From Candidatus Aenigmatarchaeota archaeon (lineage in GTDB: Archaea > Aenigmatarchaeota > Aenigmatarchaeia > QMZP01 > QMZT01), in the NCBI GenBank assembly GCA_016932735.1, contig JAFGCI010000001.1, positions 62,001 through 126,000 on the forward strand: 64,000 bases of DNA. Reading direction: 5' to 3'. The position numbers were made by a program, and so were the translations under genes. The notes beneath the pieces are model-generated. The model saw only the letters and a program-made list of their open reading frames with translations, had not been told where the DNA came from and searched no databases. Shown in pieces: positions 15,501 to 62,615 of the stretch. The first letter of the stretch is position 1. Each line of letters starts with the position of its first letter.

Positions 15501-18500
15501 TTAAACTTTTCCTGGCCAGAAGTCGCTTCTCCCGTGTCTCTGCTCATAGACTAATATATATCCTGTCAATGCAACAGCGCCTACAACTTCTCCGACTTTA
15601 TAGCCTCCGGCTGCTCCTGTTCCCCAGCTGAAGACGCCCGCCACGACAGCTCCGACAGCGCCGCAGATTTCGGGAGCCCATCTCATTATCGTTGATACCC
15701 TGTCTTTCTCATCGATGCAGAAATTGTACTGACTGTTCGTATCTATTTTGTCAACATAGACTATCTGGCCCCTTATTTTGCAGTCCTTTATCTTAAGGAG
15801 GTTCATGATTCCGTCATTTTCTGTGTCTGTATCCATGAGAATTATTTTTGGGTCTTCCTTTATCCCTACAGCCCACTTGATTTTGTCCCATGTTGTGTCA
15901 TATTCCGAGACAGTGATTGTGTCGACTACACCGTCTTTGCTTGTATCGATGAAACTGATGTCATACCTCGAGTCTTCCTTTGCCCAGAGCTTCAGTTCTG
16001 AAGTCTCTGTTTCAACGAATTCGGGCTCATCGTTGTCTTCACTACCGATGCCGTCGTATGGAGTCAGACCTACACTTCTCGAGAAGAAGATGTTGTCATT
16101 CTTCTTGTAGTATGTATAAAGATAGCAATACCTGTCCATGGCTTCCGTGTCGAATGTTCCGGAAGTTATCATCTTAGTCTTATCATTGCCAAGTATATCG
16201 TCATAAAAATTCTCATTTTGTTTGTCTGTAATGTGGCTGAGTCTTTCCTCGCCGTCTGGAGTTGCGGGGTCTTGTATATAGGTCGTTCCCTGATATTCAA
16301 ACCATACCATCTTTCCTTCTTCATTACATTCCACATCCTTAAGGATGTCTCCCTGAGGCACGATATTTTTCATCTCGATCCTGCAATTAAGGTTCTTGTG
16401 CCTTATGTGATAGGAGTCGCTGTTGTATTTGCTATTGAACTCAAAATAGGCGCTTTCCAAGCCGATGCACAGTTTGATGTTCTCTACGGACTCCTTTGCC
16501 AAATCCCTCTTCTCGCTTTCAGACATCTCCTGCCACTGCTTTGTATTCACGCCGTTGCAGCAATATGTCTTTTCATCTCCGTTCTCCATGAAATTGTAAA
16601 TGCTTTCCTCGTCTAAAGGCACATTGGGAATCTCTCCCAACTTGTATGCGACCGAGTTGCATGCAAGAAGGCCGTTCTTGTATTCGCCTTCCGGAGGATT
16701 GTACGCAGCACACTTGCCCTCGCCGCCGACTTTAACTGTATAATCCCCCAAGACGCTGTTTTTTAATGACAGGTCTATCAAAGCATCTTTCCCACCAAAA
16801 CTCAGATTATAATATGCATTCTCAGCATTCATGTCTGCATCCATCATTTCAGGAGGCATCACCAACCCTGTCATTTCCTGAACGTCGCATCGCGTGGTCG
16901 GTTCGATGCTCATCTTCAGGAAGTCCATTGCTGAACTACCACAGTTAGAAGCGCCGGCAAGGTTACTGAAATCGAAAACAAATCTTATTCCCGATATGGG
17001 GTCCCTTATGTAGGCTATATCAGTATTAAACATTTCAAGCGACGTATCATCCTTGACCAAATCCCAGTTGCTTATCCCGAACTGGAAAATACGCAAAGCT
17101 TCCACTCTTTCTTCTATATATTCGTCGTATCGGATGTCATTGCCTTTGCTCTTTTCCACTACATCAATGCTGATAGGTTCTGGTGCGCCGTCCAGCTGGA
17201 CATCTATCCTTTTTCCACCGCTCTCTATACCTGTAAGCTCGACAATCTTGTTGCTTATTATATCCCTGTCAAGTATGTCACCGTTTATAATGGCTCTGTA
17301 GCAGTCTTCTTCAGCAGATATTGTGTCCTCCTCGTCTGGTTTTTCGCAGTTGTCGACGCTGGATGCAAGCTCCCTGAGACCTCCGAAGGTCGTCCCGAAA
17401 TATCCGCATTTTACAGGCGCGAGCTTTATTTCCAGGTTAGCATAGCATGGGGATGCGAGGTAGAAAGGCTTCAGAGAACTTCCGATGAAGTCTTTTGTTT
17501 TCACGAAAAGCTGAGTCGGGGCTTTTGTTATCACAGAATTTTCCTGAAGAGTTCCGACGACAGGTATGCTGACGACGAGCTTGTTTGATTCGGGGGTGTT
17601 TCTCTGCGTCCTTGCATCCATGACGCCTATTGCATATGCGGTCAGTGTAACAGCTCCCCATCTTCTTAATCTGTCAGACCAAAGCCTTAGAGCCTCTTTG
17701 TGACCATCAATGAAAGCATTCGCTATTCTGTTAAGGGTGGTTCCTGAAAGCTTGGCGGCTTCCTCAGCGACTTCGCCGCCGATTGTCTTGGTTCCTATAA
17801 GTTTGCCTGCTGAATCAAAACTATTTACTACATGCTTTGTCACAAGCGAACCGTCAGGACTTCTTAGCACTGTCTTATATATCTGCCTTGTCGTCATGCC
17901 GTTCTTCCCAAAAAGAGGCATGAATGTAACATCGACAACGGTACCAAGCCCCTGCTTTTCTATTGCGGAGAGGGTGGATTTGGAAGCCATTTCTCTGACA
18001 GCCATCTCACCGAGCTGCCTCTCGTTGACAGTGGCTGGAAGGAACCATATGCCATGAGAGCGCGCGAATTTTCTTCCGAGTCTTTTTACTTGTGCATCTG
18101 TCATAGTGCCGATATATTCTTTTGTGACTTTCTCAACGGCTTCATCCAGGACTTCTGCATACCCTCTCTGAAGGAAAGCTTCTCCCAACTCCTTTGCAGC
18201 TCTTTCCTCTGCTTCTTTAACCAGTTTATTAGCTGCGCTTGAACCCATTTCTCTGCCCAAAAGCTTCACGCCTTCTTCAAGAGATTCCCTGGTTCCGGCT
18301 TCCGCCAGTTCTTTGGCAAGCTTCTTCTGGGCGGTCTCCGCACCAGTCTCTGCAAATTCCAGGAGCGCAATCTTGAGGCCTCTTTCGAAGATAACGTCTT
18401 CACCTATCTCTTTCATAGCTTTTTCTGTAAGTTCTTTTGAAAGATACCCTACGAATAGTTTGCTTTTTATTGGCCTTGTTATCAGTTTTTCGGTGAGTAA

Positions 18501-19952
18501 ACTGGCACCGTTCCTAATAATCCCCGGAGCAGCCTTGAGTCCTTTGCCTATACCTTTTATTGTGCCGCCGACGCCTATCCATGCAAATCCTATATCAATG
18601 ATATTAGATACCCACTGGGCTCCTCCGGACCATGAGTCGGAAGCGTCCTTCGGGAATTGCTGCCAGTAAACAAGATAAAGTGGGTCGCCGAACCCCTTTA
18701 TCCATGCCTTCCAGTCGCTGACTTCCTGCGGAAGGTAGAAATTGCTCAGAGTGCACTCATAAACAGCGCTGTCGAACCCCGTGTTTATGAACTCGTCCCT
18801 GTTGTCATTCTCCCTGTATTTTATCTTGAAATCCTCTCCAAATGTGGGGTGCAGATAATGGACATCTATATGGTCGTCATCAATCCCGCCGAGTTTTTTG
18901 TTGAGTTTCGAAATTACGTCTTTTATATCTTTCGATTTCAAGTCCACAGCGCTTTTTTCAGAATCTGATAATTGCTGATAGAATATGGTATTCTCGATAT
19001 TTTTCTTGACTTCAAGCTGTCTGAGGTCCGAGTTCATATTAAGAGCGAGGCCCGTATCTGAGAGGACAGAATTTATCTCTGAAAGGTACTGCTCTTCATA
19101 ATAAATACCGTCAAGTGCGTTCTGAAGGACCTTCAGCCCCTCTTTGTATCTTTTGTCATGCGTCAATCCATTTACTTCTTTCAGTTTTTCCTTTATTATA
19201 TCGTTAAGCGGATCTGCTTTAATCAAGGCCGTGTCAAGCGTCTCTAAATTTGCATATATTTTTTTCTCTTCTTCCTTGTTATGACCATTTATAACCGTTC
19301 TAACCATATCTTTATTATCTGTCCACCACTCCCATTTCTCAGAAACCGCATCAAAAGTATACCAGACATTTTGCTTTTGATCCTTGCAGTTCAGATTATA
19401 AAATCTGCAGTCTTCTTCGTATTCAAATTCAGGATATCCACTGAGCGATAAGCAGTCCATTTCCTGTTCTTCTGTATACAAAATAGGACCCTCAGAGCTA
19501 GCCATCCCTGTTATCTTCATTAAATCAGAAGAGCCGGATGTTATCATGCCTACAAGGCTCAGAGGGGGTCCTGATGTCACTCCGCTGCTTGCAAAGAACA
19601 TACCTGTCATTTTTCCTGATGATGGCAGCCAGGAGTCCTCCTTGTAATTAAACACCCTTTTTTCGCATCCACCGACAAGCTCTCCTGTAGCTATTGACTC
19701 TATTATGCATGCAAGATATGTGGACGAATCCATAGAAACGATGTCCTGTTCTGTATATTTGATGTCCGCTAATCTGCATTTATCGGGATTTTTTTCACAG
19801 AAAAGGTTTGTGGCATTGGCAATAGTGCCAAACATATTGCCTAGCATGGTACCGACAACCAGTATGCATATAATCACTAATGCAGCACTCATCATTATCC
19901 ACATGTTTTCGGAGCCTTGTGCTTTCTTTCTCTGAGAAGAAACGATAATCAT
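15501..19952 (-). CDS. Giant membrane-anchored protein of unknown function (1483 aa)
   Basis: 1483 residues, no family recognised. The N terminus has basic residues (QRKKAQGSE) and one hydrophobic helix (about 17-40), like the pilin-type anchors of its divergent neighbours. Next comes a cysteine-containing region with coiled-coil segments (60-330). Hydrophobic glycine-rich stretches (about 447-490) follow, then a long Ala/Glu/Lys-rich helical region (about 500-660), a possible TM near 770, a cysteine-bearing beta-rich region (800-1400), and a C-terminal glycine-zipper-like membrane segment (about 1424-1466, GAVGAVVAGVFSWGTGAAGG). It shares a 79-base divergent promoter region with the 20032-24811 operon. 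TATTTATAATC about 27 bases upstream supports the start. Possibly a structural or pore component of the same apparatus. Confidence 0.8.
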   Translation of the reverse strand: MIIVSSQRKKAQGSENMWIMMSAALVIICILVVGTMLGNMFGTIANATNLFCEKNPDKCRLADIKYTEQDIVSMDSSTYLACIIESIATGELVGGCEKRVFNYKEDSWLPSSGKMTGMFFASSGVTSGPPLSLVGMITSGSSDLMKITGMASSEGPILYTEEQEMDCLSLSGYPEFEYEEDCRFYNLNCKDQKQNVWYTFDAVSEKWEWWTDNKDMVRTVINGHNKEEEKKIYANLETLDTALIKADPLNDIIKEKLKEVNGLTHDKRYKEGLKVLQNALDGIYYEEQYLSEINSVLSDTGLALNMNSDLRQLEVKKNIENTIFYQQLSDSEKSAVDLKSKDIKDVISKLNKKLGGIDDDHIDVHYLHPTFGEDFKIKYRENDNRDEFINTGFDSAVYECTLSNFYLPQEVSDWKAWIKGFGDPLYLVYWQQFPKDASDSWSGGAQWVSNIIDIGFAWIGVGGTIKGIGKGLKAAPGIIRNGASLLTEKLITRPIKSKLFVGYLSKELTEKAMKEIGEDVIFERGLKIALLEFAETGAETAQKKLAKELAEAGTRESLEEGVKLLGREMGSSAANKLVKEAEERAAKELGEAFLQRGYAEVLDEAVEKVTKEYIGTMTDAQVKRLGRKFARSHGIWFLPATVNERQLGEMAVREMASKSTLSAIEKQGLGTVVDVTFMPLFGKNGMTTRQIYKTVLRSPDGSLVTKHVVNSFDSAGKLIGTKTIGGEVAEEAAKLSGTTLNRIANAFIDGHKEALRLWSDRLRRWGAVTLTAYAIGVMDARTQRNTPESNKLVVSIPVVGTLQENSVITKAPTQLFVKTKDFIGSSLKPFYLASPCYANLEIKLAPVKCGYFGTTFGGLRELASSVDNCEKPDEEDTISAEEDCYRAIINGDILDRDIISNKIVELTGIESGGKRIDVQLDGAPEPISIDVVEKSKGNDIRYDEYIEERVEALRIFQFGISNWDLVKDDTSLEMFNTDIAYIRDPISGIRFVFDFSNLAGASNCGSSAMDFLKMSIEPTTRCDVQEMTGLVMPPEMMDADMNAENAYYNLSFGGKDALIDLSLKNSVLGDYTVKVGGEGKCAAYNPPEGEYKNGLLACNSVAYKLGEIPNVPLDEESIYNFMENGDEKTYCCNGVNTKQWQEMSESEKRDLAKESVENIKLCIGLESAYFEFNSKYNSDSYHIRHKNLNCRIEMKNIVPQGDILKDVECNEEGKMVWFEYQGTTYIQDPATPDGEERLSHITDKQNENFYDDILGNDKTKMITSGTFDTEAMDRYCYLYTYYKKNDNIFFSRSVGLTPYDGIGSEDNDEPEFVETETSELKLWAKEDSRYDISFIDTSKDGVVDTITVSEYDTTWDKIKWAVGIKEDPKIILMDTDTENDGIMNLLKIKDCKIRGQIVYVDKIDTNSQYNFCIDEKDRVSTIMRWAPEICGAVGAVVAGVFSWGTGAAGGYKVGEVVGAVALTGYILVYEQRHGRSDFWPGKV

Positions 19953-19973
19953 AATAATTAATTGTCTCAGGCG

Positions 19974-20008
19974 ATTATAAATATCTAAAAGGGCTAACTA
20001 TATAATAA
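19974..20008. promoter_or_regulatory. Divergent promoter between the giant protein gene and the anchored-protein operon
   Basis: On the minus strand a TATA-like TATTTATAATC lies around 19974-19984, about 27 bases before the ATG at 19952. On the plus strand CTATATAATAAG lies around 19998-20009, about 28 bases before the ATG at 20032. Both spacings fit leaderless archaeal transcripts. The shared 79-base region suggests joint control. Confidence 0.65.
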
Positions 20009-20031
20009 GTCATCTGCAACAATAGTTTAAT

Positions 20032-20163
20032 ATGGCTGTGATGGAGTCGGATGCGGGCAATACCACGGGATATGTTATCTGGATACTTGTCGGCGGCGTT
20101 ATAACGGCTTTGCTGGTGGGAATATTTGTTTTCAGCTATATGAAAGAGGTCGGACTCATATAG
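20032..20163 (+). CDS. 43-aa single-TM small protein
   Basis: A short gene with sequence MAVMESDAGNTTGYVIWILV at the start, then a hydrophobic helix (about residues 13-35) and a short KEVGLI tail. A good TATA box at leaderless spacing, and position as first gene of a tight series (12 bases to the next), support it as real. The length resembles minor pilins or small membrane scaffolds, but no prepilin peptidase site is clear. Function unknown; role in the surface apparatus inferred from context only. Confidence 0.65.
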   Translation: MAVMESDAGNTTGYVIWILVGGVITALLVGIFVFSYMKEVGLI

Positions 20164-20175
20164 AGGCGGATTCAA

Positions 20176-20319
20176 ATGCTAAAAAGCGATATTCATAATA
20201 AAAAGGGAATGGTCCCCATATGGATAGTCGGAACAATAATATTCTCGATAATGGTAATTGCGGCTGCAATTTTATTATGGCCCAAACTTTTTGAGCTTTT
20301 GATGGGGCTGCGCGGTTAG
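20176..20319 (+). CDS. 47-aa pilin-like single-TM small protein
   Basis: The N terminus MLKSDIHNKKG is followed at once by a hydrophobic helix (MVPIWIVGTIIFSIMVIAAA). The arrangement of basic residues, Gly, then a long hydrophobic stretch resembles class III (type IV pilin-like) signal segments; similar KKG and RKG starts occur in the M23 protein and the protein at 24077. The body after the helix is only about 15 residues. Follows the 43-aa gene by 12 bases. Whether it is cleaved by a prepilin peptidase is unknown. Confidence 0.65.
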   Translation: MLKSDIHNKKGMVPIWIVGTIIFSIMVIAAAILLWPKLFELLMGLRG

Positions 20320-20369
20320 AATTAATCTATTTAAAATTCTTTTTAAGTTTCCTTAATTAATATTTTTAA

Positions 20370-21014
20370 ATGCGAGGCATCTTAGGACCGCTTCAGGAGA
20401 CGATATTTTTAGGTTTCAAGATAATAGCTTTCCTGCTGCTTATCGTGATAGTTTTTAATCTGATTACAGAATACACCGATAGCGTATGTGTGGAATCCAC
20501 TACTCAAAGCATTAACGACTTGATAGATGAAATAAAGGGGGATTCAGGCAGTGGATTTGCGACAATATCAGTCAATAAACAATGTATAGATGCTGTTGTT
20601 ATAGCAGACAAACAGCCTAATATAGGAGCCTGGACAGAAGTGAAATGTTACAGCGACCAGAAAAATGAAGGCGGCACACTCTTCATAACATATTACAAAG
20701 ATGCCGGCTTCAGCGAATATATATCGAGTGTAAAACGCGCCGACATAACTGAAATAGTTTCTCATATCAAAAGAAGCGTTAAAAACAAATGCCAATATGC
20801 ACCGCTGATTCTAACTTATGCGTCATTTGATGCCGTCAAGGCGGGCGATGCAAAGCTGGAAATAAGGGGATCAGGCTCGAAAACTTACAGCGGTGTATAT
20901 CTCCCTTCTGACAAAAATGAAGAAATAACAAAATACTGCATCCACTATACTATAAAGGAAGAGCAAGAAAGGAACGTCTTCCAGATAGACAGTATAACGA
21001 GTGGTGAATGTTAG
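20370..21014 (+). CDS. Unknown membrane-anchored exported protein
   Basis: 214 residues: an N-terminal hydrophobic helix (about 15-32, FKIIAFLLLIVIVFNLI) and a soluble outside domain with five cysteines (including SVCVEST, NKQCIDA, VKCYSD) that could form disulfides. No known family. A TATA-like TTAATTAATATTTTTAAATG lies directly before the start, so the start may have its own promoter. Part of the operon-like series; 11 bases separate it from the SLT-like gene. Confidence 0.7.
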   Translation: MRGILGPLQETIFLGFKIIAFLLLIVIVFNLITEYTDSVCVESTTQSINDLIDEIKGDSGSGFATISVNKQCIDAVVIADKQPNIGAWTEVKCYSDQKNEGGTLFITYYKDAGFSEYISSVKRADITEIVSHIKRSVKNKCQYAPLILTYASFDAVKAGDAKLEIRGSGSKTYSGVYLPSDKNEEITKYCIHYTIKEEQERNVFQIDSITSGEC

Positions 21015-21025
21015 AAGTTGATTGA

Positions 21026-22081
21026 ATGGATATAGCATTAAGGAAAACAATAATAATGGCAATCACGATTATTGTCTGCTTGTTCAGTATAACGCTTGTA
21101 GCCATGGATAAGATATCGGAACTTGCTCAGGATACTCCTGTATCAACATTCGATGTAGGCACTCTGCTATCGAAATCATTTACCGAACTCAACAATATTG
21201 ACAAAGCGCAGAGGTTCATAAATTTCGGATTTCTTTTCAAAATAGAGATTGAACCAAAAAAATCCGGCTTGGAAAAAATGAAGCAGTATGAAATAAAAGT
21301 TGTCGCTGTTGACAATGAGAGTGAAAAGGAATATGGAGAGGAATTCGAACAGGAGATAATTTCCAATATCATAGGTTGTGACGGAAAGAAATGCACGTTT
21401 TTGTGTTCGGGTGTCGGAATAAAAAAAGACGAAAAAGGAATATGTATACAATGCTATGACAAAAGAAAAGATGATATCACGGGCAGTTGCAACGAAAAGG
21501 ATTTCAGGTTCCATCCCTGCCCTTACGCAGACAGGCAGGAAGAACTGAACGAAATCAAGAATTATATGGAAGAATATTCCGATTCAGATGTCTCTGGCCT
21601 TTCAGACGAAGAATTGCTCGCAATGTTGAAATCCATTGGCCTCAAAGAGACTTCTTTAAGGCACTGTAAAGATGGTATAGTTATACTCGGTCTTACAGGA
21701 GACATAGGTCTTATGCAAATAAACCCGAACGCGCACAAAGACGGGAACTGGTTTATACTTGAAGAAAACATAAGAAAAGCTAGGGACATACTTGTCGGAA
21801 ATTTAAAATTCTTTAATGGATATAAAGAGCAGAAGAGGCTCGCATTTGCCTATTACAACTGCGGAAATACGGTAAAGAAAGCCATACCTGAGTATGAATC
21901 GATTCATGGATCTGGAAGCGCCAAAAATATGGAATGGAAGGATTTTGAAGACATACTGGCCAAATATTGCCGTCAGGGGGATACAAGTTCAACGACTGTG
22001 GATCATGTAAATTTGATTGTGGACAACTATATGCAGAAATTTATTAACAATCCGGGTTGTTACGATTTCGTGTGTGTGTGA
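21026..22081 (+). CDS. Membrane-anchored lysozyme/lytic-transglycosylase-like protein
   Basis: 351 residues. An N-terminal TM helix (about 8-25) anchors a domain with cysteines (CDGKKCTFLC), followed from about 180 by a region like the SLT/goose-lysozyme fold. That region has IGLKETSLRHC (candidate catalytic Glu), LTGDIGLMQINPNAH (the GLMQI motif near 230) and LAFAYYNCGN (the A-YN-G motif near 282). Such enzymes cut the glycan strands of murein. Finding one in an archaeon is unusual because archaea lack true murein. Its neighbour two genes on carries an M23 peptidase. Fold call is by motif only. Confidence 0.72.
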   Translation: MDIALRKTIIMAITIIVCLFSITLVAMDKISELAQDTPVSTFDVGTLLSKSFTELNNIDKAQRFINFGFLFKIEIEPKKSGLEKMKQYEIKVVAVDNESEKEYGEEFEQEIISNIIGCDGKKCTFLCSGVGIKKDEKGICIQCYDKRKDDITGSCNEKDFRFHPCPYADRQEELNEIKNYMEEYSDSDVSGLSDEELLAMLKSIGLKETSLRHCKDGIVILGLTGDIGLMQINPNAHKDGNWFILEENIRKARDILVGNLKFFNGYKEQKRLAFAYYNCGNTVKKAIPEYESIHGSGSAKNMEWKDFEDILAKYCRQGDTSSTTVDHVNLIVDNYMQKFINNPGCYDFVCV

Positions 22082-22089
22082 GTGATTTT

Positions 22090-22869
22090 ATGGAGATACT
22101 AGACTTGTTTGCTCTCATTCTTCTGATAACAGTTGTAGCTGCGGTTGTTACCGCTTCTCAGATAGATTACGTATCAATAAAAACCATTCAGACGTCCTCT
22201 ACACAGAAAATGCTTATTGTTGATTACAGTAAGACCGTGGAATCCTGTCTTCTTCAACTCTGTGACGGCAAGTTCATAGATGCAGAAAAACTGGACGAAA
22301 TACGTGACGAAAGCGACGATATAGATGAAATATGTGATATGGATTTATTGAAAGGCATGTATGTAAGGTTGGAAGCGGTCAATTCGGACAGAATATGGGA
22401 ATTTGGAAAGAGTAAAGGAGATAAAAAGAAGGGCAGCCACATGTCATGGATAAACATAGGATTCAAAGAAATTGAAAAAATACAGAAAGAAGGGGACTTT
22501 CAGATTGAAAGCGGGGACTATGAAATAACGATACGGAAAATCGACAACGGATTGCTCGAGAAGGACTCTATACTGCTTTCTTTTAAAAAATTGTCCACAA
22601 ACGAGGCTTTACAGGAGTTCAATGTTCAGGAGAAGGAACAGATAAACGGGCTTTATGAGGAGGCATTGAAAAACGACGAAGATTTCAAAAAATCATTCAT
22701 TTTACGCGTGCCGGAAGGGGAAATATACAACACGGATAATTTTTTAGTTGAAGGGTATACATTCAGAAAATTCGGAGATTCGTACACTGTGGGCAGAGGA
22801 AGGCCTTTATGGTTTGATGTAGAAGGTGACAGTTTGACAGATGTGGGGACGTTATATGTCGAGATATAA
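22090..22869 (+). CDS. Unknown membrane-anchored exported protein
   Basis: 259 residues from ATG 22090, which lies 8 bases after the stop of the SLT-like gene; a longer in-frame start at 22057 would overlap that gene. One N-terminal hydrophobic helix (about 5-25, LFALILLITVVAAVVTA) precedes a charged soluble domain with three cysteines near residues 50-80. No family recognised. The 3' end overlaps the M23 gene by 14 bases, implying translational coupling. Confidence 0.72.
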   Translation: MEILDLFALILLITVVAAVVTASQIDYVSIKTIQTSSTQKMLIVDYSKTVESCLLQLCDGKFIDAEKLDEIRDESDDIDEICDMDLLKGMYVRLEAVNSDRIWEFGKSKGDKKKGSHMSWINIGFKEIEKIQKEGDFQIESGDYEITIRKIDNGLLEKDSILLSFKKLSTNEALQEFNVQEKEQINGLYEEALKNDEDFKKSFILRVPEGEIYNTDNFLVEGYTFRKFGDSYTVGRGRPLWFDVEGDSLTDVGTLYVEI

Positions 22870-24067
22870 GAAGGGAGCTGTGCCAGTAATACTACTTATA
22901 ATAATTTTATTGGCTGCAATGATTATTGGGAGCCTTTTTTTACGCTCATTTGCCAGTTCCAACACTCTGGGCAGGAGTTTATTGAGAGACCAGAAAGTAA
23001 TCAGGTATTATTATGATACAGAAAATATGGGCACCATGGTCCTCTCATTTCTTAACACAAAGCAAGGCGAAATGGACTATGCGGTGCTTCTGGGTGCAAT
23101 GGGAGCAAGCAACTTCCCTCTTCAGAAGAAAAATGATATAGAGAAAACTTTGGAGCAGATGGCGACTGCAATGAACAAGGAAAAATGTTATATTGTTATC
23201 AGAGGCGCGGAAAATACAGAGACATTAGGAAAGAGCTCTTCGGTTCAGTCCTCACCGAACGCCGGATTTTCTGAAAGAAAGGAGATAGAGGCAACAATAA
23301 ACAACCTTCCAGTTAAAGGCGATACATGTATAACATCCCCTTTCGGCTGGAGATTCTGGTGGACGACACATGATTATTCCAACGAGGATGGAAAAAGATG
23401 GCAGTTCCATATGGGAATTGATTTGGGAAGCAAAGACCAGGAAGTGGTTTCTGTTGATGAAGGGATAATAGATTATATAGAAAGTTCATGTGATGAGAAC
23501 GTTCCCCATACATGCCTTCAGGCCGGTCAGGAGGATGTGAAGGGATGCGCCTGCAATAGCGGATACGGTAATACGGTTGTAATTGCCCATGGAGAGAAAT
23601 CAGAAAAATCGGTATACAATAAAATAAAGAACAAGGAAGAGAAAGTGACCGCATATGATTTTTACACAATATACTCCCATATGAATGAAGTAAAAGTAAC
23701 CAAAGGACAGTCTGTCTCGGCCGGAGATGTTTTGGGAACAGTCGGCAATTCTGGAAAATCTACAAATTATCATTTACATTTTGCTGTCAGCAAAGCTCCA
23801 TACGAACCTGAATACAGAAGCAGCCCATTAAACTATTACAACCCCTGTCCATTATTCTCCGAAAATTCCGGATTGAAAGAAATCATTTCCAAGAATAGCG
23901 GAAACTGCAAATCCTGCGAAGCCGACTGTATGGAGAATGTTCTGGACCCGGAGGCAGATAAAGACGAGATTGAGTTATGTGCTTTGAGTGGGGGAATAAA
24001 AGAAGCTACATACATACCACTTGTGGATGAATATAAGACAGGTACAGTTGAAATAGCCTGTTATTAA
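22856..24067 (+). CDS. Pilin-like anchored M23 family metallopeptidase
   Basis: 403 residues from ATG 22856 (overlapping the previous gene). The N terminus SRYKKGAVPVILLII is a class III-like anchor: basic residues, Gly, then hydrophobic helix. The central domain (about 150-330) is an LytM/M23 peptidase. It has QFHMGIDLGSK (zinc His and Asp), YSHM near residue 280, GDVLGTVGNSGKS and the HxH ligand in YHLHFAV, so all zinc ligands are present. M23 enzymes cut peptide cross-links of murein. The C-terminal 70 residues have a cysteine cluster (CKSCEADC). Functionally linked to the SLT-like protein by operon position. Confidence 0.85.
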   Translation: MSRYKKGAVPVILLIIILLAAMIIGSLFLRSFASSNTLGRSLLRDQKVIRYYYDTENMGTMVLSFLNTKQGEMDYAVLLGAMGASNFPLQKKNDIEKTLEQMATAMNKEKCYIVIRGAENTETLGKSSSVQSSPNAGFSERKEIEATINNLPVKGDTCITSPFGWRFWWTTHDYSNEDGKRWQFHMGIDLGSKDQEVVSVDEGIIDYIESSCDENVPHTCLQAGQEDVKGCACNSGYGNTVVIAHGEKSEKSVYNKIKNKEEKVTAYDFYTIYSHMNEVKVTKGQSVSAGDVLGTVGNSGKSTNYHLHFAVSKAPYEPEYRSSPLNYYNPCPLFSENSGLKEIISKNSGNCKSCEADCMENVLDPEADKDEIELCALSGGIKEATYIPLVDEYKTGTVEIACY

Positions 24068-24076
24068 GTGAAAATA

Positions 24077-24811
24077 ATGTCAAGACAAAGAAAGGGAATG
24101 GGAAACATGGTAATTGCTTTCGCGTTAATAGTCATATTGATATTTGTCTGGACCCCTACAGGAAAACTGAAAGGCGAAACTTCCAATGATTACATTACAA
24201 TAGTCAGAGAAGACGATACTAATACAGTCCAGAACTCCCTGGACCTCGCCAAAAAGTTTTTAGAAACGTCTCTAAACTATGCTGTCTATCAGGCAATAGA
24301 AGATACATCTATCATGGAAGATGAACAAACACTATCTCAGCTTATCCTAAATAATCTAAATATATACACAGAGTCCGGGAAAAAAACAATAGCCTCTATG
24401 GGAAAGGAAATAAATCTGCTAGAATTTAAAAAAATAATTTTAGAACCTCGTGGGAATTACATGCAAATAAAGGCCGAAGCCGAGAAAGAACTGTCCTATG
24501 AAACCAAACTGAATGAAAACGATATTTTATATCAGGAAAAAAACGCCGATTTAGATATAATCCTTCCTTTTAGTATTTTTGAAATGAAAAACGAAGCCCA
24601 GAGCATTTTCGATTCGGTCAAATCAAATTCATGCGGAGGTAGAAAATATGACAGCGAATGCGGAAGATATTATTGCAAAGCATCATCCGTTATGGAAGAT
24701 ACCTGCAAAACCACAATAAAAGTCGAATATAGAGAAACGACTTATCCCGTTTTAGAAAACGACAAAGCAGTGTTCAAGAATCTTGGCCTTACATTCACCT
24801 TTAAAGAATGA
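24077..24811 (+). CDS. Unknown pilin-like anchored protein
   Basis: 244 residues from ATG 24077 (a GTG 9 bases earlier is less likely). It begins MSRQRKGMGNMVIAFALIVI, the same basic-Gly-hydrophobic anchor as the M23 protein and the 47-aa protein. The outside part is alpha-helical with Glu/Lys-rich segments, then a small cysteine cluster (CGGRKYDSECGRYYC). Last gene of the series; it ends one base before the stop of the convergent aIF6 gene. No family recognised. Confidence 0.7.
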   Translation: MSRQRKGMGNMVIAFALIVILIFVWTPTGKLKGETSNDYITIVREDDTNTVQNSLDLAKKFLETSLNYAVYQAIEDTSIMEDEQTLSQLILNNLNIYTESGKKTIASMGKEINLLEFKKIILEPRGNYMQIKAEAEKELSYETKLNENDILYQEKNADLDIILPFSIFEMKNEAQSIFDSVKSNSCGGRKYDSECGRYYCKASSVMEDTCKTTIKVEYRETTYPVLENDKAVFKNLGLTFTFKE

Positions 24812-58139: not shown

Positions 58140-61100
58140 ATGAATGAAAAAATCATAATAGCAATGACCCTGATTTCAGGAATGTTCATTATTTTATTTT
58201 CAGCCAGGGCGGAAATCTATCCAAGCGAAATCGGCAAAATGCTATCAGACTTTGAAAATGAAAGGAATGTCATAATTAATTTTGGAGGAGCAAGTGACGA
58301 CTTTCCGGATGAGGCCGAATTCAATAATGCAGGAAGAGAGCTGTATCTTATTAACGAAATGGATAAGAAAGGTCTTCCGGATTTCAATGTATTCGTCCTT
58401 TATGCCAAGATTAATGGGCAGCCCACAATCGGATATTTCCATTCCTATAACTGCGACATCTTTACAAGAGTAATCAAAGGTCTCAAAGAAGAACTTGATA
58501 CAGAACCTTCGGAAAAGGACTTCAAGGACATTCTGGAAAACCTGATAAACAGAACAGAATATGTCTTGGATATTGGGGGAGAAGAATGTCTGCTCAATGT
58601 CTGCGAGTTGATTAAAAATGGAGAAGATGAGAGATACGAAGGTTTTAATTGCGAAAAGAAGGGAGCTAACGGTAAAGATGACAAAGACCCCCACAAATGT
58701 GTAAAGGGGGCAGAAGAGATACTATGCCTTTATGCAGAAGCCTACAAAACCGGAGAAACAGAGACTTTTATTGATTACGGGAAAACCGTTTTTCTTGTAG
58801 ATGACAGCGACTGGAGAACGACCCTCTCATTACTGCCTATTGCCGTCTATCATACATATGGTAATCTAATTGAAATAGCAGATGACGGGATGAAAAACAA
58901 CGCAAGACTTGCAAGCATTATTTACAATCCTTGGATAGTCTATCATAAAGAAGGCAACTCTGTGGATATCGAATCTGTCATGCACCTCCTAAAACAGTTG
59001 AAGTATTCTGAACGAACAAACCCCGAGGAGATAATCATTATAGCCGACTCCGAAAAGATAATTTCAAAAAACCTTCTTCTAGCCCTTTCTGACAAAAATG
59101 TCGGACTGGGATTCGAGCCGGGGAAGATAAAATTCGTGAAACCTGAAGATTACAATATTTTATGGGCTGAAACTATAAGCGGTATCGGAGGATTCCTCGG
59201 TCAGAAAGAAAAGAAATACGATTCCGTTGTGGTTTCCGATGCAAACGATTATGAGGCAGGACTAATGGCGGCGCATTTTGCATCCTTCATGCACATGCCT
59301 TTGATTTTTGTAGATCCCGGAAAAGACGGTTATGAAAAGGAACTGGGAAGGTACAAAGATACAGAAACTGTCTATATTGTAGGCGATTTTGATGATAATT
59401 TCAAATTATTGATCAGGGGAACGGACATTCTTAAAATGGAAAGAAGAGCTGTTCAAGATTCTGTCATATCTTACAGCAAGGAAGGGCTGGTCAATTACAT
59501 TTCAGAAACTCTTAATGCAAACAAAATGATTCTGGTAAATCCGGCAGATATAGAAACAGAAAACTGCGAAAATTTTGATTTCACTACATCTTTCGGCACC
59601 GTTACCAATGAATACTGCGGAGATTCGATAAATGCACCGCTTCTCGCGACATTCAGGAACGAGATAATAACTTTTACAAACACAGAACCTGTCGGTTATG
59701 ATATATCCTTACCAAAATGTGAACATTCTGATTTGTCTTCATCGCCCACGCAATTCATGGATTCAGAAGGTAAAATATATTCTTATCAAAATGATAAAAT
59801 ATCTTTTTTTGATACGAAAAATTTTGATAAATGGCAGACAATAATCAGTGGAAACTATTTTGTCAGCTTTTCAGTATCTCCCGATAAAAAGACGATATTC
59901 GGAGTCGAAAAGAAAACTGGGGAGATGAACAAATATTCATTTTATCCGTTAAGTGATATAATTTCTAGAGTGGTTGGGATAAAACCAGAATTTACCATAG
60001 AAAATGAAAAAGCAATATTCAGTTACCTTTCATTTTCCGGCACAGGTAAACCTGGATTTGTAATCGATAATCAGAGAAACATTTACGGCTTGTATGAGGA
60101 AACGGAGACAAATGAAGGGGAAAGCAAGAAATCGATAAAACTGGTAAAAATGAACGAAATGGGAAACGAAATAGGAACTTTCAATTTAATATCAGAGAAA
60201 GACGAACTGGTCAAATTCGCCACGAGAGAAATAGAAAACAGACTGAGCGAAGTTGCCGAAGTCGTGGGTTATTACCCGGACGCATTTGACCTGAAAATGG
60301 AGAACCTGAAAATAAATTCGTATCTCCGGCCGTTAAAAGACTCACTTTTCGTGCTGTACGAGTTCATACTTCCTCCTTTGGAAAAAGACAGAAAAGACAA
60401 CATCATTGTTACTCTTTTTGAGAAAATCACTATACAGGAATCCGGACTGAAAAGGAACATGTTTGCTGGCTCAAATATAGAGTTCGGCCCTGAAAAGCCG
60501 TTGTTTGTAGAGACGGATGAAGAGGGTAATGTTTTTTTCAGAAGGGAGAGCGAACTCATTTTTATCACAAATAATATGGAAAAACTGAAAAAGTATTCAA
60601 TACCCCTTGAGACGGGATTGCCGTTCTCCATGACATCTCTCTGCTTAAAGGGAGATAGGGCTTATTTAGTTTTGGACGATGATATAGTGGTTGAGCTTGA
60701 AAAGGAATCTGTTTTATCGGGAAAGGGGTTCAATGCTGAAAGAGTATTCAATCCAAAAAACTGCAGATACGGACCGGATAAAATAGGCATTGATGAAAAA
60801 TCAAAGAAAGCTGAAGATAAGATCCTTTATGAAATTCTTGAAAACGTAAGAAGCGATCTTGAAGATAAGATGGAGGGAATGGAATACCTTACTATATTAT
60901 CCTCGCCGAACCATATACCTCTGAGCTCTTACGTCCTTTCAGATATACAGGGAAACAATTACAGGATACCTCTGGATTCTGTATATTCGGACTTCAAAAT
61001 CAACGAGATTGAAGACAGAGAATCCTTCGATTTCATGCCGGAACTAAAGATTGGTGCAGACGGCATTGAGGATGTTGCTGTTGGGAGGATATTTGGGATA

Positions 61101-62615
61101 ACAGTTTCGGATACCTCGTCTTACCTAAATAGGATAATGAGCTTTGAAAGAAATGGTATGATGTATTTCCCAAATGACGAACTTCAGACACTGGAAACTT
61201 TAAACTCTATAACGATTTTCGATGCCGTGAATACAGGAAAATCAAAAACCACGTCATTGATAGAGCCTATTAAGAGTCTTTACGATATTAAATGCTTCAC
61301 TTCCTCGAATAAACAAGAAAATTGTAACTATATAAAAAGAGGCATGTTGCATCCTAATGAGATTAATTCCAATATATATTTGTACACAGGAACAGGAAAA
61401 ACGAATGAACTCATATACGCCGGAATATCTTCTGAAAATATACCGCCTCTTCAATCCACTATAGGGATAAGCGGAACTTCCCAGACGAACGACTACTATT
61501 CCTCATATAGAGACAGCCTCTTCGGAGCGAATATTATAAGGAATGGAGGTTCCAACTTCGGCTCCGTGAGCAGCACGATGGGAAACAAATTGGGAGAAAT
61601 AATATTTTCAAATATTATGTCCGGAATGGATTTGGGGAACTCTCTGAAATTGGCGAAAGAAAAATCAAAAACAAGGGATATTATCCTGACAAATTTCGTT
61701 CTTTTCGGCGACCCCGTAATGAAGCCTGCATTAAAAAAAATAATTGATTTGGGTGTAAAAGACCTTGATGACAACCTTTGCATCAAGGGAATATGCGATA
61801 TGTTTGCCCTTACAGGAACCTCAGTCCCGAAAAGGGTTTTCAGCGACGGCATAGTTGTTATAGACCCAGGACATGGCCATGGAGATCTTGGAACTGTCGC
61901 CAAATTAGACGGAAATGTTATTTTCGAGAAGGATGTGAATCTCGAGAATTCGAAGATGCTCAAAAAGGCTCTGGCCAGGAAAGGCATCCAGTCAATCTTA
62001 ACCAGACACGATGATGGCTTTTATCAGGCAGATCAATTCGATTATAAAATAGGAATCGCCAACGAAAATCCAGACGCTGTCTTTTTCATAAGCATGCATA
62101 TGGACGCTACCCCATATTCATTTAGCGGAGGAAACGATGTAGTGGACGAATGCCTGGAAAAAACTTCCTGCAGCATAAACGACGAGAAATTCAATGAATG
62201 CCTTATCAGTTGTGGAGAAGAAGCGGGTGAGAAAAAAGCAAGAAAATGTATACAGAGCGAAGGCTATAGCGTCTTCTACAACGAGGATGCTGACTCGCTT
62301 TACTATAAAGGAGAAGACAGGAAAGATGTTGCGAACGAAATTTTTGAGAAGCTTTTCAAACTTCAATCAGAAGAAGATTTTCAAAATTATAAGCCTCATG
62401 CAGGCAGGTTGAAAGCAGGTCCGAATGAACAATACATCAATAAAGGGGGTTTGGGCGTTCTAAGAAAAGCGAAAATGCCGGCAAACCTAATAGAGGTCGC
62501 CTTTCTTTGTAATGATTATGATATGAGCCTTTTATCAGATACTGAGAAACATTCAGCAATAATCAGTACAATAGCATCAGGAATAGAAGAATTTCTTTTC
62601 GGGGATAATGCATGA
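58140..62615 (+). CDS. 1491-aa exported protein with C-terminal N-acetylmuramoyl-L-alanine amidase (Amidase_3)
   Basis: Signal peptide at 1-24 (EKIIIAMTLISGMFIILFSA). Residues about 365-430 (YDSVVVSDANDYEAGLMAAH, VYIVGDFDD) resemble cell-wall-binding repeat 2. About 950-1230 resembles a gingipain/C25-like caspase fold (DVAVGRIFGITVSDTSSYLN and, near the end, LFGDPVMKPALKK) with no clear His-Cys pair. Residues about 1238-1490 are Amidase_3: VIDPGHGHGDLG (His), FEKDVNL (Glu), FISMHMDA (His) and LIEVAFLCND (catalytic Glu), all present. A cysteine-rich insert (about 1330-1375) splits the domain. The family cuts the amide bond between muramic acid and peptide. No sorting anchor seen at the C terminus. 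Confidence 0.85.
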   Translation: MNEKIIIAMTLISGMFIILFSARAEIYPSEIGKMLSDFENERNVIINFGGASDDFPDEAEFNNAGRELYLINEMDKKGLPDFNVFVLYAKINGQPTIGYFHSYNCDIFTRVIKGLKEELDTEPSEKDFKDILENLINRTEYVLDIGGEECLLNVCELIKNGEDERYEGFNCEKKGANGKDDKDPHKCVKGAEEILCLYAEAYKTGETETFIDYGKTVFLVDDSDWRTTLSLLPIAVYHTYGNLIEIADDGMKNNARLASIIYNPWIVYHKEGNSVDIESVMHLLKQLKYSERTNPEEIIIIADSEKIISKNLLLALSDKNVGLGFEPGKIKFVKPEDYNILWAETISGIGGFLGQKEKKYDSVVVSDANDYEAGLMAAHFASFMHMPLIFVDPGKDGYEKELGRYKDTETVYIVGDFDDNFKLLIRGTDILKMERRAVQDSVISYSKEGLVNYISETLNANKMILVNPADIETENCENFDFTTSFGTVTNEYCGDSINAPLLATFRNEIITFTNTEPVGYDISLPKCEHSDLSSSPTQFMDSEGKIYSYQNDKISFFDTKNFDKWQTIISGNYFVSFSVSPDKKTIFGVEKKTGEMNKYSFYPLSDIISRVVGIKPEFTIENEKAIFSYLSFSGTGKPGFVIDNQRNIYGLYEETETNEGESKKSIKLVKMNEMGNEIGTFNLISEKDELVKFATREIENRLSEVAEVVGYYPDAFDLKMENLKINSYLRPLKDSLFVLYEFILPPLEKDRKDNIIVTLFEKITIQESGLKRNMFAGSNIEFGPEKPLFVETDEEGNVFFRRESELIFITNNMEKLKKYSIPLETGLPFSMTSLCLKGDRAYLVLDDDIVVELEKESVLSGKGFNAERVFNPKNCRYGPDKIGIDEKSKKAEDKILYEILENVRSDLEDKMEGMEYLTILSSPNHIPLSSYVLSDIQGNNYRIPLDSVYSDFKINEIEDRESFDFMPELKIGADGIEDVAVGRIFGITVSDTSSYLNRIMSFERNGMMYFPNDELQTLETLNSITIFDAVNTGKSKTTSLIEPIKSLYDIKCFTSSNKQENCNYIKRGMLHPNEINSNIYLYTGTGKTNELIYAGISSENIPPLQSTIGISGTSQTNDYYSSYRDSLFGANIIRNGGSNFGSVSSTMGNKLGEIIFSNIMSGMDLGNSLKLAKEKSKTRDIILTNFVLFGDPVMKPALKKIIDLGVKDLDDNLCIKGICDMFALTGTSVPKRVFSDGIVVIDPGHGHGDLGTVAKLDGNVIFEKDVNLENSKMLKKALARKGIQSILTRHDDGFYQADQFDYKIGIANENPDAVFFISMHMDATPYSFSGGNDVVDECLEKTSCSINDEKFNECLISCGEEAGEKKARKCIQSEGYSVFYNEDADSLYYKGEDRKDVANEIFEKLFKLQSEEDFQNYKPHAGRLKAGPNEQYINKGGLGVLRKAKMPANLIEVAFLCNDYDMSLLSDTEKHSAIISTIASGIEEFLFGDNA

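Follow-up and report, generated by a model that had tools for sequence, protein, structure and literature searches.

The locus described here, eight genes of an uncultured DPANN archaeon (Candidatus Aenigmatarchaeota), is probably one part, the tip with its minor pilins, of a type-IV-filament machine that is particular to Aenigmatarchaeota and carries wall-cutting modules on pilin-like subunits. It occupies positions 15501-24811 of the window, by which we mean the whole 64,000-nucleotide stretch that was analysed, and sits on the 209-kb contig of a genome of 1.18 Mb in 11 contigs. What emerges beyond the first-pass annotation of this DNA is that, as judged from homologous sequences, the subunits bear their enzymes as modules that can be absent or exchanged for others.

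A divergent locus of anchored proteins

One gene of the locus, BIG, is read leftward and seven are read rightward across a 79-base gap, and all eight genes and the divergent spacing lie where the first-pass annotation had placed them. The rightward genes are separated by no more than about 50 bases or have short overlaps, and g247 ends two bases short of a convergent gene.

15501-19952, minus strand: BIG, 1483 aa, with an N-terminal prepilin-like anchor bearing KKAQG
19953-20031: divergent intergenic region, 79 bases, common to BIG and the rightward operon
20032-20163, plus strand: s43, a small hydrophobic protein of 43 aa, the weakest of the set
20176-20319, plus strand: s47, 47 aa, mini-pilin-like, with NKKG and then a hydrophobic helix
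20370-21014, plus strand: g214, pilin-like subunit 1, kept across the order
21026-22081, plus strand: SLTp, pilin-like N-domain and C-terminal SLT lytic-transglycosylase domain
22090-22869, plus strand: g260, pilin-like subunit 3 (the ORF opens with TTG at 22057; the ATG at 22090 is the more likely start)
22856-24067, plus strand: M23p, YKKG prepilin motif, pilin-like N-domain and C-terminal M23 peptidase (a start at 22841 is possible; the ATG at 22856 is more likely)
24068-24811, plus strand: g247, QRKG prepilin motif, pilin-like subunit 5

No homologue of s43 was established, s47 corresponds to a 54-aa protein in the equivalent position within its genus (L026 5022-5186; L, G and f numbers are our labels for loci, genomes and families), and weak single-sequence matches of both were taken as chance. 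A Pfam search recognised no known domain in g214.

All the rightward proteins have a single N-terminal hydrophobic stretch, as had been noted earlier for nearly all proteins of the locus, and BIG has a C-terminal hairpin besides. The companion claim, that several of them have KKG or RKG ahead of the anchor, stands for s47, M23p and g247, to which KKAQG in BIG can be added, and does not extend to the window's own SLTp and g260, from which the prepilin motif is absent. Among relatives, [KR][GA] is found just before the anchor in 32/33 M23p and 34/35 g247 proteins, against a background of 24 of 76 other single-anchor proteins (Fisher p = 5e-18 for the enrichment in M23p and g247), and it is less frequent in g214 (21/27), SLTp (19/31), g260 (14/27) and BIG (22/39). 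We regard the predicted prepilin motif as convincing for M23p and g247 and as partial for the other subunits. No Pfam or NCBIfam pilin family was matched by the set of BIG, g214, SLTp, g260, M23p and g247, and AF2 models of the window's SLTp (mean pLDDT 37.8) and of a 737-aa BIG homologue (mean pLDDT 36.8), each built on a shallow alignment, have means below 40 and are too poor to be read for a pilin fold.

Two murein-hydrolase domains

Judged by profiles and motifs, the SLT and M23 domains are genuine murein-hydrolase domains, predicted to be active, and the earlier recognition of an SLT/goose-lysozyme-like region and a complete M23 peptidase was correct. As a single sequence, M23p matches Pfam Peptidase_M23 at E = 8.5e-17; its family profile finds zinc endopeptidases, ShyA among them, at about 1e-22, and the zinc-ligand motifs HxxxD and HxH are present. 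The SLTp sequence by itself reaches Pfam SLT at E = 0.0053, below the curated cut-off, while its family profile gives E = 3e-10 to MltF and 2e-5 to goose-type lysozyme, and the catalytic Glu and the GLMQ and AxYNxG motifs are all present. Loss of the active-site residues, which would have counted against real enzymes, is not seen: E208 of SLTp and H190, D194, H280, H311 and H313 of M23p (M23p residues counted from the ATG at 22841) are invariant in 7/7 family members, and such invariance at 20-37% overall identity argues for selection on catalysis.

Elsewhere in the 64-kb window, a plus-strand gene at 58140-62615 encodes a protein of 1491 aa with an N-terminal hydrophobic signal-like stretch, a Peptidase_C25-like region and a C-terminal Amidase_3 domain whose H/E/H/E motifs are intact, making it a third murein-type enzyme.

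A conserved gene set with exchangeable enzymes

BIG and the operon recur in the nine genomes of the window's family, the BIG profile matches 82 of the 156 genomes of the phylum and 41/41 of the order, and the order g214-SLTp-g260-M23p-g247 is unbroken in all 33 loci that were recovered with three subunits or more. The genes thus do co-occur, a point that the first-pass annotation had left to a search of gene neighbourhoods.

The enzymes are far less constant than the subunits. In other families, SLTp and M23p are often represented by homologues of just 125-170 aa or so, which match the N-terminal part alone; because profiles made from the N-domains still match these enzyme-free homologues in the same slots, the short forms are the same subunits without an enzyme. 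Conversely, SLT is found on g247 in G135 and G136 and on g260 in G116, the g247 slot holds VanY in G126 and YkuD with Amidase_3 behind PKD-type domains in G117, and the M23p slot holds Peptidase_M15_4 in G115 and G116. Signature residues are visible in the swapped VanY, M15, YkuD and Amidase_3 copies, and most of the swapped enzymes have intact motifs. We left out of the active enzymes an SLT-like domain on a small pilin of G127 (L139 6076-6639), which has no catalytic Glu. Of the roughly 37 genomes of the order that could be evaluated, we counted about 21 whose operon has at least one murein-type enzyme, and every catalytic domain recognised in the operon belongs to a murein-acting family; several g247 proteins also have long C-terminal stretches without any match. 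In at least 13 relatives the operon bears no enzyme that we could recognise, so murein cutting is not a universal function of the machine.

Motor and prepilin peptidase

In the sister families f3 and f4, genes for PilB-like and PilC-like proteins, BIG, small pilin-like proteins and the five subunits are contiguous (L071, L072, L144, L145 and L150), with a T2SSE ATPase of 750 aa and a T2SSF platform of 700 aa and nine TM directly before BIG, and the class-level relatives L172 and L173 have the platform near BIG, with or without the ATPase. The first-pass annotation had seen no secretion ATPase in the window and had concluded that outside partners would be needed; there is indeed none at the locus, and the partners, known from the sister families, have close relatives elsewhere in the genome. 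On contig 7, apart from the operon, lie genes for a PilB-like protein of 749 aa (L217), 67% identical to the BIG-linked ATPase of G117 and with archaeal GspE2, CpaF and FlaI as its best PDB matches, and for a PilC-like protein of 713 aa with 8-9 TM (L208), 46% identical to the BIG-adjacent PilC of G117. Because this motor is at a separate locus, its pairing with the operon is by orthology only, and the genome has other T4P-type motors, namely three T2SSF pairs and further PF00437 ATPases. The T2SSF platform (PF00482) occurs in 9/9 genomes of the window's family and prepilin peptidase (PF01478) in 8/9, the window's included. PF00437 ATPases are present in 156/156 genomes of the phylum, so it is their linkage to BIG, and not their presence, that is informative.

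Several features lie around these genes. Between the PilB-like and PilC-like genes of the window genome (G000) stands one ORF of 6286 aa (L220 188-19048, minus strand, contig 7), which has a single N-terminal anchor and contains 404 cysteines; its place holds a protein of 1950 aa in G007 and one of 201 aa in G008. Where the prepilin peptidase matches on contig 1 of G000 (L203 8746-9981), a 284-aa, 7-TM protein is encoded; its neighbour, a small pilin-like ORF in which a MEKSIQIVVVVVVVLATALIIMIIF helix is seen, is possibly a major pilin. A cluster of small proteins of 3-6 TM recurs (L071 1055-3330, L072 1333-3441, L201 4218-6303 and L219 10267-12767), and in f3 it immediately precedes the PilB-PilC-BIG operon. 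A VirB/T4SS reading, considered because several small multi-TM proteins are found at other loci, was rejected, the BIG-linked motor being of the T2SSE/T2SSF type.

The BIG protein and its distribution

BIG has a conserved core, F-LPQ...GDPxxLVYWQ, with conserved cysteines, and a C-terminus that forms a glycine-rich hydrophobic hairpin and ends in WPG. It matched no PDB or Pfam family, and single-sequence matches to a type III translocon protein (E = 0.12) and to DUF7670 (E = 0.57) were taken as chance. A scan of named genomes, made with an alignment of four closer rows, returned mostly Aenigmatarchaeota records, the exceptions being the closest relative, which is deposited as Micrarchaeota, one "archaeon" record and one Nitrospirae record. 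In relatives, a gene of about 190-280 aa that is convergent with BIG recurs beside it (L027 5008-5586, L029 3236-3940, L031 4623-5276, L140 544-1275 and L142 3687-4409); it is absent from the window.

The Nitrospirae record (MTOU01000018.1, "Nitrospirae bacterium JdFR-85"; L074 9605-12669) holds roughly 3 kb of aenigmatarchaeal-type DNA inside a bacterial contig, with a broken BIG and the convergent neighbour gene, 55% identical to that of G144, surrounded by hydrogenase, DnaG and RpoD genes. Bar one marginal match (E = 5.8e-4), the piece was not found in the other 176 genomes of the Nitrospirae order, and it is either what remains of a DNA transfer from an archaeon to a bacterium or a chimera made in assembly.

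The likely target of the enzymes

A search for penicillin-binding transpeptidases found none in the 41 genomes of the order, and as a control it matched the ten bacterial genomes and no archaeal one. The order therefore almost certainly builds no murein, and on the same grounds maintenance of the cell's own wall was rejected as the role of the enzymes. M23, M15/VanY, SLT, Amidase_3 and YkuD cut or make different bonds, and murein is the one polymer known to unite them. The absence of the transpeptidase and the chemical range of the swapped enzymes together make bacterial walls the most likely target of the operon enzymes, a prediction from gene content. The first-pass annotation had proposed a surface apparatus that either opens bacterial walls or acts on an archaeal wall polymer; the surface apparatus is retained, with bacterial walls as its most likely object, and the polymer is disfavoured because the different bonds of these families meet only in murein.

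Explanations considered

The explanation that we think probable runs as follows. The five pilin-like subunits (g214, SLTp, g260, M23p and g247) and BIG would be inserted in the membrane, where prepilin peptidase would cut at least some of the subunits, and the subunits would be assembled or pushed outward by the PilB-like ATPase together with the PilC-like platform, the genes of both being those on contig 7. Their C-terminal murein-cutting domains (SLT and M23 in this operon) would then be held at the cell surface or at a filament tip, and could open the wall of a touched bacterium locally, be it for attachment, feeding, killing, or the exchange of DNA or protein. The same genes could instead form a static, membrane-anchored surface complex that makes no filament and cuts murein touching the cell. 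The missing prepilin motif of the window's SLTp and g260, the position of PilB and PilC outside the locus in the window's family and models too poor to show a pilin fold all suit that idea, which we nevertheless hold to be unlikely, given the contiguity of PilB and PilC with the operon in the sister families and at class level, the motif on 66/68 M23p and g247 proteins, and the prepilin peptidase in the genome. A bolder version of the filament, a contact machine whose exchangeable tip modules open living bacteria and whose BIG hairpin enters or bridges the bacterial membrane, so that the order would be predators or episymbionts of bacteria and not of archaea, we put forward as a rather improbable speculation.

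Nor need the bacteria be alive: murein of dead cells or debris might be digested for nutrients, and the biosynthetic limits of DPANN, the occurrence of enzymes for several murein bonds and the signal-peptide amidase protein at 58140-62615, which could be a soluble digestive partner, would fit. Such scavenging is distinctly unlikely, since digestive enzymes would not have to be fixed to the pilin-like subunits of an operon that is linked to a motor, and the operon usually has one or two enzymes per genome, not a full digestive set. The joint fit of M23, M15/VanY, SLT, Amidase_3 and YkuD to murein bonds, and to those only, and the retention of catalytic residues as in the bacterial enzymes make it very improbable that the substrate is an archaeal envelope polymer, whether the cell's own wall or the pseudomurein or glycoprotein layer of an archaeal host, even though archaea generally lack murein and all cultivated DPANN depend on archaeal hosts, as stated in the abstract of PMC11291902. 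Least probable of all is a pseudopilus for DNA uptake or protein secretion, in which the cargo is central and the murein enzymes are incidental to some lineages; enzyme-free operons are common, which means that the core function is not cutting, but the fused enzymes are exclusively murein-acting, and they have been joined repeatedly, in independent-looking events, to several different subunits. The filament tip with wall-cutting modules accordingly remains the reading that we prefer.

Relation to known systems

VirB1 and FlgJ open the wall of their own cell for trans-envelope machines. The proposed local opening of murein resembles theirs and that of phage tape-measure proteins, one of which, bearing an SLT domain, is among the matches of the SLTp family profile; the archaea of this order have no penicillin-binding transpeptidases. 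The type IV pili of Streptococcus sanguinis have modular minor pilins, PilB with a vWA module and PilC with a lectin module, modelled as a tip complex (PMC9934059). As there, C-terminal modules, here predicted to be active, are grafted onto minor pilins, here putative ones whose moieties also exist without an enzyme; the differences are that the modules are murein-cutting enzymes and not adhesins, and that they are borne, in an archaeon, by several subunits of a conserved five-gene set. With archaeal type IV pili (Haloferax PilB3/PilC3, Sulfolobus Ups/Aap), as described in the excerpted text of a 2016 census (PMC4858521), the system shares the T2SSE ATPase and T2SSF platform, putative class III signal peptides, clearest on M23p and g247, sets of putative minor pilins and large adhesin-like proteins; that text makes no mention of Aenigmarchaeota, DPANN, transglycosylases or M23 peptidases.

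Murein-cutting enzymes encoded by DPANN are known from Woesearchaeota and Pacearchaeota, whose large extracellular murein-like transglycosylase proteins have been proposed to act on bacteria (PMC8204110, PMC9723730). Those are large stand-alone proteins, whereas here, in another phylum, the modules sit on a pilus-type operon and enzyme families are swapped. Secreted archaeal peptidoglycan hydrolases have been shown experimentally to kill bacteria (PMC12352652), and they too include archaeal M23 enzymes; they are modular, with wall-binding domains and a patchy distribution, and are not pilus-bound as the enzymes here would be, for which a bacterial target is deduced. The open-access literature that we searched contains no account of an archaeal pilus-type operon whose subunits bear murein-hydrolase modules.

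What the locus would mean for the Aenigmatarchaeota

The BIG core and the five pilin-like genes provide a marker set with which such machines can be sought in other genomes, and the concept of the modular minor pilin would cover wall-cutting enzymes as well as adhesins. That archaea without penicillin-binding transpeptidases conserve a pilus-type operon which has repeatedly gained murein cutters predicts physical contact with bacteria, and this prediction bears on the question of which hosts the Aenigmatarchaeota may have.
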